From NCBI GenBank assembly GCA_025965935.1, contig JAOPVZ010000082.1, forward strand, positions 1 through 36,235: a DNA stretch of 36,235 nucleotides. The letters are read 5' to 3'. The stretch comes from Frankiales bacterium (GTDB lineage: Bacteria; Actinomycetota; Actinomycetes; Mycobacteriales; SCTD01). The translations under genes were made by a program, and so were the position numbers. Shown here one piece after another: positions 5,008 through 21,276 of this stretch (position 1 is its first letter; each line of letters opens with the position of its first letter). Below the pieces are notes generated by a model, which was not told the DNA's origin, did not search any database, and saw only the letters and a list, made by a program, of their open reading frames with translations.

Positions 5008-5922
5008 CTAGTTGGCGTGCAGGGCGGCGTTGAGCTCGACGTTCTTCCCTGCGCGAGCACGGGCCTGCATGGCGCCGGTCACGCTGTCGCGGAGGAAGAG
5101 CAGGCCCGAGGAGCCGGACAGGTCGCGGCCCTTGACGACGCGGCCGTCCTCGAGCGTCACCTTCGTACCGGCCGTGACGTAACAGCCGGCCTCGACGACG
5201 CAGTCGTCACCGAGGCTGATGCCGGTCCCGGCATTGGCGCCGACCAGGCAGCGCTTGCCGATCCGGATGACCTCGGTCCCGCCGCCCGACAGGGTGCCCA
5301 TGACGGAAGCACCCCCGCCGATGTCGCTGCCGTCGTCGACCACCACGCCGGCGCTGATGCGGCCCTCGACCATCGACGCGCCGAGGGTGCCGGCGTTGAA
5401 GTTGACGAAGCCTTCGTGCATGACGGTCGTGCCCGGGGCGAGGTGGGCCCCGAGCCGCACGCGGTCGGCGTCGGCGATGCGCACGCCCGTGGGCAGCACG
5501 TAGTCGACCATCCGCGGGAACTTGTCCACGCTGAGCACCTGCATCGGCCCGGACGCCATCAGACGCAGTCGCGTCGCCTCGAAATCCTCGACAGCGCACG
5601 GTCCGCGCGAGGTCCAGACCACGTTGGCGAGCAAGCCGAACTGGCCCGACAGGTCGCAGCCGTGCGGCGCCACAATGCGGTGGGACAGCAGGTGAAGGCG
5701 CAGGTAGACGTCCGGCGCATCGACCGGTGGCGCGTCCAGGTCGATCGTCCGGGTGACCACCTCTCGGCGGACGCCACGGACGTCGTCGGTGGTGGCGAGC
5801 GCCGCCAGCCCCTCGGGAGCCGTGGCATCGGCACCGAGCCGGGGAGCGGGGTACCAGGTGTCGAGGACCTGGCCCTCGGGGGTGAGCGTCGCGAGGCCGA
5901 CGCCTGAGGCGGTGCGGGTCAT
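5008..5922 (-). CDS. dapD: 2,3,4,5-tetrahydropyridine-2,6-dicarboxylate N-succinyltransferase (actinobacterial type)
   Basis: DapD transfers succinyl from succinyl-CoA to tetrahydrodipicolinate in the succinylase branch to meso-DAP and lysine. The 304-residue length fits the actinobacterial clade (about 310-320). An N-terminal alpha/beta region is followed by a left-handed beta-helix built of hexapeptide repeats (about residues 165-265: [53 protein letters not shown]). Such enzymes form trimers. ATG 5922 was chosen because a TAGGCT -10 ends seven bases upstream and no good upstream start with conserved residues exists. It is divergent from dapE across only 23 bp. The GNAT gene follows two bases after its stop. 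Confidence 0.93.
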
Positions 5923-5929
5923 GGCCGTC

Positions 5930-5939
5930 AGCCTAGATT
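5930..5939. promoter_or_regulatory. Interlocked divergent -10 elements of dapD and dapE
   Basis: Plus strand 5934-5939 reads TAGATT, ending six bases before the dapE GTG. Minus strand 5935-5930 reads TAGGCT, ending seven bases before the dapD ATG. The two hexamers share the TA at 5934-5935. Both spacings predict transcripts starting at or next to the start codon, so neither mRNA would have a Shine-Dalgarno leader. Confidence 0.7.
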
Positions 5940-5945
5940 GCTCAC

Positions 5946-7007
5946 GTGGACCTCGACCTAACCGATCCGGTCGCGCTGACCGCACAGCTCGTCGACGTCG
6001 CCTCAGTCAGCGGCGACGAGCAGCGGCTCGCCGACCTCGTCGAGCAGGCACTGAAGCTGCCGCACCTGACGGTCGACCGGATGGGCAACAACGTCGTCGC
6101 CCGCACCGACCTCGGACGTGACCGGCGGGTGCTGCTGGCCGGCCACCTCGACACCGTCCCGGTCGCCGACAACCTGCCCTCGCGGCGCGACGGCGACCTG
6201 CTGCACGGCTGCGGCACCAGTGACATGAAGAGCGGCGACGCGGTGCTGCTGCACCTGGCCGCGACCCTCAGCAACCCCGGCTACGACGTCACCTACGTCC
6301 TCTACGACAACGAGGAGGTCGCCGCCGAGCGCAACGGCCTGGGCCACCTCGTCCGCGAGCACCGCGACTGGCTCGACGCCGACCTGGCCCTGCTCATGGA
6401 GCCGACCAACGGCCTCATCGAGGCAGGCTGCCAGGGCACCCTCCGCGTCGACATCTCGCTGGCGGGCAAGCGCGCGCACAGCGCTCGGTCCTGGCTCGGC
6501 GACAACGCGATCCACGCCGCCGCTCCCGTGCTCGCCGCGCTCTCGTCGTACCAGGCCCGGGACGTCGACATCGACGGCTGCGTCTACCGAGAGGGGCTGC
6601 AGGCGGTCGGCATCACAGGCGGTGTCGCCGGCAACGTGGTGCCCGACGCGGCCACGGTCACGGTGAACTTCCGGTTCGCGCCGGACCGCTCCGAGAGCCA
6701 GGCGCTGCAGCACGTCCGCGAGGTCTTCGACGGGTACGACGTGACGGTGACCGACTCCAGTCCGGGTGCCCTGCCGGGGCTGACCGCCCCGGCAGCCCGG
6801 CACTTCGTCGAGGCCGTCGGGGAGACGCCGGTCGCGAAGTACGGCTGGACCGACGTCGCCCGGTTCAGCGCCCTCGGGATCCCGGCGCTGAACTACGGGC
6901 CGGGCGACCCCAACCTCGCCCACACCCGCGAGGAGCACGTCGACGTCCGGCTCGTCGCCAAGGCAGCGGACCTGCTCCGGTCCTACCTGAGCCGGCCGCC
7001 GGACTGA
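5946..7007 (+). CDS. dapE: Succinyl-diaminopimelate desuccinylase
   Basis: Zn-dependent M20 hydrolase that removes succinate from N-succinyl-LL-DAP. The metal and catalytic residues are visible: AGHLDTVPV (His67, Asp69), GTSDMKSG (Asp93 bridging), NEE (Glu123 catalytic, Glu124 metal) and the late [12 protein letters not shown] histidine. A dimerisation lid region with [17 protein letters not shown] lies in the middle. The 353-residue length and motif style match the actinobacterial DapE group. The GTG start at 5946 fits the TAGATT -10 six bases upstream; no Shine-Dalgarno is present, consistent with a leaderless mRNA. Together with dapC and dapD this supplies three consecutive steps of the pathway. 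Confidence 0.94.
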
Positions 7008-8152: not shown

Positions 8153-8956
8153 ATGGAGGAGACCAGGCGCGAGCACGAGCAGGAGTCCGTCGAGGCAAAC
8201 GCGGAGGCGCAGACCTCGGCACGGCAGGAGCGGCAGGAGGGGCCGGTCCGGCGCCGCGGGCTGCAGGTCCGGCACAGCACCACCGACCAGCGGTTGCTCG
8301 ACAACCGCGGGCCCTCGGACTGGGTGCACACCGACCCCTGGCGGGTCATGCGCATCCAGTCGGAGTTCGTCGAGGGCTTCGGCATGCTGGCTGAGCTCGG
8401 CAAGGCCATCACGGTCTTCGGCTCGGCTCGCACCAGACCGGATGACCCCTATTACGCGAAGGCAGAAGCTCTGGGGCGCAAGCTTTCCGAGGCTGGCTAC
8501 GCGGTCATTACCGGTGGCGGTCCCGGCATCATGGAAGCTGCCAACAAGGGCTGTCACGAGGCCGGCGGCACGTCGGTGGGGCTCGGCATCGAGCTGCCCT
8601 TCGAGCAGTCCATGAACGAGTACGTGGACCTGGGCATGGTCTTCCGCTACTTCTTCGCCCGGAAGACCTGCTTCCTCAAGTACTCCATCGGGTACGTCGG
8701 GATGCCCGGCGGCTACGGGACGCTCGACGAGATCTTCGAGGCCGTCACGATGATCCAGACGGGGAAGATCACGTCGTTCCCGCTGGTGCTCCTCGGCACC
8801 GACTACTGGAAGCCGATGATGTCGTGGATCACCGACACGGTGCTCGGCGACGGCAAGATCAGCCCGCCTGACGTCGAGCTGTTCACCCTCACCGACGATG
8901 TCGACGAGGTGGTGGAGCTCTTCCAGGAGGCCGAGCGGGACAGCTTCGGCACCTGA
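8153..8956 (+). CDS. LOG-family nucleoside 5'-monophosphate phosphoribohydrolase-like protein (1)
   Basis: This 267-residue protein is of the TIGR00730/LOG type, whose plant members release active cytokinins from their 5'-monophosphates and whose bacterial members cleave AMP-type nucleotides. Motifs are ITVFGSAR, the nucleotide loop TGGGPGIMEAANKG, and MPGGYGTLDEIFE, the PGGxGTxxE signature with catalytic Glu; RKTCFLKYS carries the upstream Arg. About 90 charged residues precede the Rossmann core, of which the first ~35 are Glu/Arg-rich and probably disordered. The start codon follows a TAGGTT -10 by seven bases. It overlaps the second LOG gene by one base. In mycobacteria a LOG gene also lies close to dapE. 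Substrate is inferred, not shown. Confidence 0.85.
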   Translation: MEETRREHEQESVEANAEAQTSARQERQEGPVRRRGLQVRHSTTDQRLLDNRGPSDWVHTDPWRVMRIQSEFVEGFGMLAELGKAITVFGSARTRPDDPYYAKAEALGRKLSEAGYAVITGGGPGIMEAANKGCHEAGGTSVGLGIELPFEQSMNEYVDLGMVFRYFFARKTCFLKYSIGYVGMPGGYGTLDEIFEAVTMIQTGKITSFPLVLLGTDYWKPMMSWITDTVLGDGKISPPDVELFTLTDDVDEVVELFQEAERDSFGT

Positions 8957-9558
8957 TGGCGGCGATCTGCGTCTTCTGCGGCTCCTCCGAGCGGATCTCG
9001 CGCTCCTACGTCCAGCTCGCGACCGACGTCGGGCACGAGCTGGCCCGCAGGCAGCACACCCTGGTCAGTGGCGGTGGGGCGCTGTCGATGATGGGCGCCG
9101 TCGCCCGCGCCGCCCGGTCCGGCGGGGCGCGGACGACCGGCGTCATCCCGCACGCGCTGCTCCAGCTCGAGGTCGGCGACCAGGACGCGGACGAGCTGCT
9201 CGTCGTGGACGACATGCGCACGCGCAAGGGCCTGATGGACGCCCGCTCGGACGCGTTCCTAGCCCTGCCCGGCGGGCTCGGAACGCTGGAGGAGCTCACC
9301 GAGGTCTGGACGTCACGGTTCCTCGGCATGCACGTGAAGCCCGTCGTGGCCCTCGACGTCGACGGCCTTTGGGAACCGCTGCGCGCACAGGTCGACCTGA
9401 TGATCGAGCGTGGTTTCCTGCGCACCGAGGCGGCTGCGACCCTGGCGTGGGCGACGACGGTCGAGGAGGCCTTCGAGCTGCTCGAGTACGGGCTGGCGCA
9501 CCCGGTGCGCGTGCTGCCGACCCTGGACGAGGCACTCGAGTCCGAACCGCCTGCTTGA
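8956..9558 (+). CDS. LOG-family nucleoside 5'-monophosphate phosphoribohydrolase-like protein (2)
   Basis: The 200-residue protein is a compact LOG-type enzyme: AAICVFCGSS at the N-terminus, the phosphate loop VSGGGALSMMGAVA, DDMRTRKGLMDARSDAF with the catalytic Arg, and LPGGLGTLEELTEV with the catalytic Glu. It lacks the acidic N-terminal extension of its neighbour. ATG 8956 overlaps the preceding stop (TGATG), so the two paralogues are translated together. The GALSMMG loop departs from the more usual GRVGLMG, which may alter specificity. The pair could act as a hetero-oligomer or on two substrates; this is inference. Confidence 0.87.
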   Translation: MAAICVFCGSSERISRSYVQLATDVGHELARRQHTLVSGGGALSMMGAVARAARSGGARTTGVIPHALLQLEVGDQDADELLVVDDMRTRKGLMDARSDAFLALPGGLGTLEELTEVWTSRFLGMHVKPVVALDVDGLWEPLRAQVDLMIERGFLRTEAAATLAWATTVEEAFELLEYGLAHPVRVLPTLDEALESEPPA

Positions 9559-19681: not shown

Positions 19682-20727
19682 AGCTGGTACGCCGCCTTCA
19701 GGTCGGCGTCGCGGGCGGCGAGCTGGGTGGCCAGCTCCAGCACCACCTTGCACTGCTTGAACGTCGCGTCGTCCTGCATCTTGCCGTCGATCATCACCGC
19801 GCCGCGGCCGTCCTCGCCCATCTCCTCGACCACACGCTTGGCCCAGGCGACCTCGGCGGGGTCGGGGGAGAAGACCTTCTTCGCGATGTCGATCTGCACC
19901 GGGTGCAGGGACCACGCGCCGACGCAGCCGAGCAGGTAGGCGTTGCGGAACTGGTCCTCGCAGGCGACGGTGTCCTTGATGTCGCCGAAGGGGCCGTAGT
20001 AGGCGTAGATGCCGTTGCTGGCGCAGGCGTCCACCATCCGGGCGACCGTGTAGTGCCACAAATCCTGCTGGAAGGTCGCCCGCGGCGCACTCTCGTCGGC
20101 TCCGGGGTCCTCGCGGACCAGGTAGCCGGGGTGGCCGCCGCCGACGCGGGTGGTCTTCATCCGGCGGTTGGCGGCGAGGTCGGCCGGGCCGAGTGAGATG
20201 CCCTGCATGCGCGGGGAGGCCGCGCAGATCGCCTCGACGTTGGCCATGCCCTGGGCGGTCTCCAGGATGGCGTGCACCTGCAGCGGTCGGCTGGTGCCGG
20301 CCTTGGCCTCCAGCTGCGCGAGCAGCCGGTCGACGTAGTGGATGTCGTCCGGGCCCTCGACCTTCGGGACCATGATGACGTCGATCTTCTCGCCGGCCTC
20401 GAGCACGAGGGTGGTGAGGTCGTCGAGGACCCACGGGCTGCCGAGGTCGTTCACCCGCGTCCAGAGCGCCGTCTCGCCGAGGTCCACCGAGTTGGCCACC
20501 TTCACCAGGCCCTCGCGCGCTGCCACCTTGTTCGACGCCTGGATCGCGTCCTCGAGGTTGCCGAGCAGCACGTCGACCTTCGGCGCGATGTCCGGGACCT
20601 TCGAGACCATCTTCTCGTTGGACGGGTCGAAGAAGTGGATCATCCGTGACGGCGTCCACGGGATCTCGCGCAGCGGGGCGGGCGCGCCGACCGCGAGCGG
20701 CCTGAAGAAGTCCTTCGCATTTCGCAC
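19678..20727 (-). CDS. Malyl-CoA/beta-methylmalyl-CoA lyase (Chloroflexus-like Mcl)
   Basis: The 349-residue protein strongly resembles Chloroflexus malyl-CoA lyase: [131 protein letters not shown] and [15 protein letters not shown]. These are Mg-dependent aldol-type lyases that split (3S)-malyl-CoA to acetyl-CoA and glyoxylate, and beta-methylmalyl-CoA to propionyl-CoA and glyoxylate. GTG 20727 fits a TAACGT -10 seven bases upstream (leaderless). The gene is divergent from marR, a likely regulator, and is coupled to the Mcl2-like gene. Which of the activities is used in the cell cannot be read from sequence. Confidence 0.87.
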
Positions 20728-20734
20728 GGGAAAG

Positions 20735-20766
20735 ACGTTACTCAGTGTTGCAGGTACAAGTAAGAT
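20735..20766. promoter_or_regulatory. Divergent mcl/marR promoter region with possible MarR operator
   Basis: The minus strand has TAACGT (20740-20735) seven bases before the lyase GTG, with TTACTT (20763-20758) 17 bases upstream of it. The plus strand has TAAGAT (20761-20766) six bases before the marR GTG. TTACT (20738-20742) and AGTAA (20759-20763) are inverted copies flanking the gap, and an imperfect TTG..CAA lies between (20748-20759). A MarR-type repressor could cover both promoters here. Confidence 0.55.
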
Positions 20767-20772
20767 TGGCCT

Positions 20773-21276
20773 GTGGTGATGAAGGCGACAGCCGAGCGGC
20801 TCACGGAACGTGAGCTCGGTGTCTGGCGGACTTTTCTCCGTGCGCACTCGCAGATCAATCGCAAGCTCGAGGCCGAGCTGGTCGCCGAGCACGACCTCCC
20901 GCTCGGCTCCTACGACGTGCTGCTGCAGCTCGCGGAGGCCGACGGGCGCCGGCTGCGGATGACCGAGCTCGCCGACCGGGTGCTGCTCTCGCGCTCCGGC
21001 CTGACCCGGCTGGTCGACCGGCTGGAGCGTGACGGTCTGGTCGAGCGGGTCGCCTGCGCCAACGACGCCCGCGGCACCCACGCGGTCCTCACCGAGGCCG
21101 GTCTCGGCCGGCTGCGCGGCGCCGCGCCGACGCACCTGCGCGGCATCTCCGAGCACGTGACGTCGCGGCTCAGCACCGATGAGCTCGACCAGCTCCAGCA
21201 CCTGATGCTCAAGCTCGCGGACGGGCCGCTCGAGCCGCCCGCCGGCGGTTGCGGTGCCGCCGAGGGCGTGCACTGA
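20773..21276 (+). CDS. MarR-family transcriptional regulator
   Basis: The 167-residue protein shows the MarR winged-helix plan: long N-terminal helix ([25 protein letters not shown]), a recognition region [34 protein letters not shown], the wing [16 protein letters not shown] and a C-terminal dimer helix. It should bind a palindrome, often near its own promoter, and release it on binding a small ligand. Here the divergent mcl operon is the obvious target, so the ligand may be a CoA ester or an acid from that pathway; this is inference. Three in-frame starts follow in a row (GTG 20773, GTG 20776, ATG 20779); the TAAGAT -10 spacing favours 20773. It overlaps azlC. Confidence 0.87.

Follow-up and report, generated by a model that had tools for sequence, protein, structure and literature searches.

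Can a gap of 23 bp serve two divergent genes as their common promoter, and if so, is the arrangement particular to the pathway that the two genes share? The window analysed here, a 36,235-bp stretch of DNA from a Frankiales bacterium, carries dapD and dapE, two genes of diaminopimelate (DAP) synthesis, which serves lysine and cell-wall formation, on either side of such a gap (5923–5945, GGCCGTCAGCCTAGATTGCTCAC). An earlier note on this DNA had proposed that interlocked −10 elements place the two steps in direct promoter competition. The gap itself, divergent dapD/dapE loci elsewhere and the genome-wide occurrence of the same layout support a different reading: the gap is probably explained by a compact class of leaderless bidirectional promoters, and a competition switch dedicated to DAP synthesis is unlikely.

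Gene identities and the probable −10 elements of the gap

Both gene products score above the curated cut-offs of their families, the dapD product with 494.6 bits against DapD_actino (cut-off 441.5) and the dapE product with 521.3 bits against dapE-gram_pos (cut-off 304.2). The start of dapE can lie no further upstream, since an in-frame TAG (5934–5936), four codons ahead of the GTG, falls inside the −10 element and is followed by no ATG, GTG or TTG before the GTG itself. The dapD frame continues without a stop as far as a GTG at 5985; in the relative L032 no start earlier than the dapD ATG is possible, and this ATG aligns to residue 1 of the window's dapD, an alignment that supports the assigned start. 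Elsewhere in the window (8153–9558), two adjacent ORFs on the same strand, 8153–8956 and 8956–9558, overlap by one base; the first belongs to the TIGR00730 family and the second is similar by eye.

Table 1 Features of the dapD/dapE region, in window coordinates
Feature	Position	Strand	Remarks
dapD, tetrahydrodipicolinate N-succinyltransferase, actinobacterial type	5008–5922	−	TIGR03535; ATG at 5922
−10 element of dapD, TAGGCT	5930–5935	−	reads 5935–5930; 7 nt ahead of ATG at 5922
Core ANNNTANNNT (AGCCTAGATT)	5930–5939		TA at 5934–5935 common to both −10 elements
−10 element of dapE, TAGATT	5934–5939	+	6 nt ahead of GTG at 5946
Intergenic region	5923–5945		7 nt + 10-bp core + 6 nt; putative leaderless bidirectional promoter
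dapE, succinyl-diaminopimelate desuccinylase	5946–7007	+	TIGR01900; GTG at 5946

The sequence of the gap confirms what had been read from it, TAGATT on the plus and TAGGCT on the minus strand, six and seven bases from the start codons and sharing two bases. With the base composition of the window, the pattern ANNNTANNNT has a chance of about 0.0004 of standing at one fixed place. Leaderless actinobacterial promoters were taken as those with a TANNNT ending 6–8 nt ahead of the start codon; here the hexamers end 6 and 7 nt from the two start codons, and there is no room for a Shine-Dalgarno sequence. Bidirectional promoters are defined by mapped transcription starts on both strands, 7–25 bp apart, and if both dapD and dapE transcripts begin at their start codons, the putative starts are 24 bp apart. 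The two −10 elements lie on opposite strands and overlap as in the 23-bp class, a configuration already known. By hand reading, dapD has C at position −18 from its start, where T would be favourable. A generic scan for sigma-70 promoters and terminators returned no match; it needs a −35 box, and its silence says nothing about actinobacterial promoters of the TANNNT kind. Elsewhere in the window (20725–20775), another divergent pair has a TANNNT at leaderless distance from each of its two starts, across a 45-bp gap in which the boxes do not overlap.

Relation to known promoter types

The available parts of PMC12825309 report that 18 bp is the commonest distance between the starts of bidirectional promoters, that distances of 10 and 23 bp are frequent too, and that two opposing polymerases cannot be bound at once. 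By our own arithmetic from these classes, TA-sharing −10 boxes correspond to 23 bp, and an additional base next to dapD would account for the 24 bp here. The shared −10 geometry, which the earlier note had not seen described, thus matches the 23-bp class, and its statement that only one polymerase can occupy the gap at a time is backed by the steric exclusion given in the same source. As far as the accessible text of PMC12825309 and PMC10268837 goes, the gap resembles the promoters studied by Warman, Grainger and co-workers in its symmetric −10 overlap, in starts about 23 bp apart and in exclusive binding. It differs from them in that the starts of dapD and dapE probably lie on the start codons, so that the promoter would be the whole gap and both mRNAs leaderless; the word "leaderless" is absent from the main text of PMC12825309.

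TANNNT elements and leaderless mRNAs are common in Mycobacterium tuberculosis according to the passages available from PMC3898074 and PMC3160421, and the gap shares with the leaderless promoters treated there a TANNNT about 12 bp upstream of the first codon, the lack of a conserved −35 element and an ATG or GTG start. Those passages deal with single promoters, and a shared −10 is not described in them. Closely juxtaposed divergent promoters are also common in M. tuberculosis according to the part of PMC3898074 at hand, Rv1129c/prpD being a case with leaderless mRNAs. A search of the open-access literature, mostly at the level of titles and the beginnings of abstracts, found no description of leaderless mRNAs combined with bidirectional, divergent or overlapping promoters, and the available passages of PMC6448022, PMC3848588 and PMC5784534 do not describe a leaderless bidirectional combination. 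Within this partly accessible literature we found no account of divergent leaderless pairs that share a TA and form a class across a genome; the geometry itself is known.

Leaderless signatures at divergent dapD/dapE loci

Loci of dapE, found by protein search, and of dapD were gathered, and removal of those identical around the dapE start gave 61 non-redundant divergent dapD/dapE loci. These actinobacterial loci resemble that of the window in gene pair, orientation and two-sided leaderless signature. At dapE, 52 of the 61 have TANNNT 5–8 nt upstream of an ATG or GTG in frame, and at dapD 56 do, whereas five control hexamers occur at the same position in 0–2 (dapE) and 0–5 (dapD) of 61; the signature is missing from nine dapE and five dapD starts. 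It is kept even where other sequence parts the two genes by up to ~2.3 kb. Because the signature persists in most of the 61 loci, widely separated pairs included, it is probably an old trait that the two genes are expressed without leaders; the proposal that both mRNAs of the window's pair are leaderless gains support as the probable case, and both of its −10 elements are probably real.

Both −10 boxes are present at 47 of the 61 loci, and most loci differ from the window in having separate boxes and longer gaps. A TA common to both boxes was found at four loci only, those of the window, L032, L021 and the Geodermatophilaceae locus L073 (gap 24), and a 5-bp overlap at two more, the Micromonosporaceae loci L102 and L110 (gaps 18 and 19); a conservation of sharing across all dapD/dapE loci was therefore rejected. 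L056, with three solutions for the dapE start and −10, two of which overlap the dapD box, is ambiguous and was left out of the shared count. Since L073, L102 and L110 come from other families, overlapping boxes seem to have evolved repeatedly. The overlap in L102 and L110 (TANNNTA) has the geometry of the 18-bp bidirectional class.

The locus in its own family

Among 24 genomes of the window's family, from which identical regions were dropped before divergent loci were counted, there are six distinct divergent dapD/dapE loci. Three of them (that of the window, L032 and L021) share the TA in a 7-10-6 layout with differing flanks. G005 and G007 retain the dapD −10 and have no TANNNT at leaderless distance from dapE, and in G008 the two genes are ~760 bp apart. 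Conservation of the gap in relatives, by which the earlier note had proposed to judge its reading, holds in part: core and spacing are kept in L032 and L021, and sharing is absent from G005, G007 and G008, so that TA sharing, judged from these loci, is not strictly maintained.

The same loci bear on the alternative of a single active −10, most likely the dapD one, with a second hexamer that is fortuitous and a dapE transcribed from within dapD or by means of another sigma factor. The dapD box is present in all six distinct loci and the dapE TANNNT is lost in G005 and G007, as this alternative would have it; across the wider comparison, however, 52 of 61 loci have the dapE hexamer at leaderless distance, many of them with a distant dapD, and we regard a single active element as very unlikely.

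DapD of the actinobacterial type occurs in seven of the 24 genomes (G000, G005, G006, G007, G008, G012 and G017; a weak match in G002, 5e-5, was excluded). A non-orthologous, PRK11830-type dapD lies co-directionally upstream of dapE in 16 (for example L031:2186-2998), within ~35 bp in nine genomes and further away in seven. Both types are present in G006 and G012, and neither in G004, G011 and G018. The divergent region of G012 is identical to the G017 copy, and contamination is a possible origin of it. In a DapE tree with several weakly supported forks, divergent and co-directional types are neighbours in several places: G000 stands beside the two copies of G006, G007 beside one of the G012 copies and G008 beside G015. 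This mixing suggests that the dapD partner was swapped repeatedly, by non-orthologous exchange, beside a dapE that seems to have stayed in place.

Shared-TA layouts across the genome

The genome that contains the window (G000; 3.07 Mb, 85% complete) was searched for the whole layout with start codons on both sides. The pattern CAY-N7-ANNNTANNNT-N6-RTG has eight matches, all between coding-like ORFs, and its reversed control none. With a spacing of six on both sides (CAY-N6-core-N6-RTG) there are nine matches and no control match, which makes 17 for the two spacings, dapD/dapE included, against controls of 0. Across the 24 family genomes, after identical matched strings had been removed, the 7-10-6 layout has 98 matches against 11 in the control and the 6-10-6 layout 60 against 6 (in total 158 against 17); the family sites that were fetched lie between coding-like ORFs in 32 of 36 and 13 of 18 cases.

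The layout was also counted in two other ways. A part of G000 comprising 866,519 bases on 101 contigs, the window among them, was scanned for every core on a grid of left and right spacings from 0 to 15, which gave 13 matches, ten of them inside the 5–8 by 5–8 block and six of these at 6/6, where the grid peaks; for six rearranged motifs the block stayed empty and the whole grid held 0–3 matches. In 28% of the genome, divergent pairs were counted that have TANNNT at 6–7 nt from both starts and a gap of at most 150 bp. Eight of the 20 leaderless-like pairs have gaps of 22–23 bp (binomial P ~2e-9 against a uniform distribution over 0–150), a pile-up robust to changes in minimum ORF length and spacing range. 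In 400 kb of G124, one such pair was found among four.

Beyond the family the signal is weaker. Over 198 phylum genomes there are 1,197 matches against 845 in the control; the excess in G000 (17 against 0) is the largest among them, G000 having been reached through one such site. In 78 genomes chosen on the control of the other pattern, without G000, there are 69 matches against 44; a comparison restricted to genomes with few control matches is biased by that choice and carries no weight here. This modest phylum-wide excess over the reversed pattern, and a motif with just four fixed bases, would be in keeping with chance, small gaps in a high-GC genome yielding overlaps without function. Against this, the 17-to-0 count in G000, the 158-to-17 count in the family, the spacing peak of the grid and the conservation of the core amid changed flanks make chance an extremely unlikely explanation.

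Partner genes at the other sites

Pfam domains were assigned at 15 of the 16 other G000 pairs; in one of these 15 the left ORF has only 50 codons and may be no gene. The partners include fumarase and a FUSC-type protein, a PdtaS-type kinase and an aminotransferase-fold protein, a Lon-substrate-binding domain protein and histidinol dehydrogenase, an FAD-binding protein and a class I tRNA synthetase, DUF2461 and NUDIX, an RNase II-type protein and alcohol dehydrogenase, an AsnC regulator and a short-chain dehydrogenase, a class IV aminotransferase and FUR, and an Fpg-type glycosylase and an NrtR-type regulator. A few pairs include a regulator, but most have no obvious common pathway.

Orthologous pairs were compared at 57 sites with at least 45 codons on either side. 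Across genera of the family they keep the core while the spacing shifts between 6 and 7, as at fumarase/FUSC in L196, L198, L283 and L287, at class IV aminotransferase/FUR in L180, L189 and L192, and at further pairs likewise. The matches in G000 and in the family make the shared-TA layout look like a recurring class in the genome and the family, and not like a device of one pathway. The fumarase/FUSC core (AGTCTAGGTTTG; L150, which is C288 of G000, with L196, L198, L283 and L287) is better conserved than that of dapD/dapE.

The other sites also bear on the idea that sharing of the −10 is maintained in order to make dapD and dapE anticorrelate and to balance the flux to DAP. The geometry does forbid simultaneous occupancy, on the principle set out in the available text of PMC12825309, the core is retained in three distinct family loci, and overlapping boxes recur in other lineages. 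Yet the 16 other G000 matches mostly join genes without an obvious link, divergent dapD/dapE pairs usually have separate boxes and may lie up to 2.3 kb apart, and 16 of the 24 family genomes carry the co-directional, non-orthologous dapD upstream of dapE. One pathway needs both products, and anticorrelation would bring no evident benefit; in E. coli, moreover, the tested bidirectional promoters are reported not to compete at basal activity (PMC12825309, available part). The special competition between two DAP steps that the earlier note had proposed is thus not borne out, and we judge it unlikely.

Discussion

From the observed sequence, geometry, conservation and genome-wide enrichment we infer how a compact leaderless bidirectional promoter may work at dapD/dapE. 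The central TA of the core ANNNTANNNT would form the first two bases of the −10 on each strand, and RNA polymerase with the housekeeping sigma factor could bind in either orientation. RNA would begin at, or one or two bases from, the first base of each start codon, so that both mRNAs would be leaderless and their starts separated by about 24 bp. Polymerase bound one way would exclude the opposite orientation. The size of the resulting competition is expected to be small, because basal transcription was too low for competition at five of five bidirectional promoters tested in E. coli, where competition emerged once one direction was strengthened or activated (PMC12825309, accessible part); at ordinary activity there would be little interference, and the genes would be coupled only if one direction were strongly active. 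The class is probably retained because a palindromic TA gives two genes the smallest possible common promoter, which can be shared since leaderless genes need no 5′ untranslated region.

More tentatively, a sizeable share of the close divergent pairs in this lineage may be minimal two-way switches built on a gap-filling, leaderless 10-bp ANNNTANNNT core, in which the orientation of polymerase landing would couple expression and noise; dapD/dapE would be one of at least 17. Leaderless mRNAs and bidirectional promoters, each known already, come together in this one compact architecture, which can be counted from sequence alone. If it is confirmed, a change in the shared TA should affect both metabolic genes of a pair together, and such pairs would offer a clean natural test of interference between opposed polymerases. 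They may also aid gene finding, both start codons of a pair being readable from its promoter.
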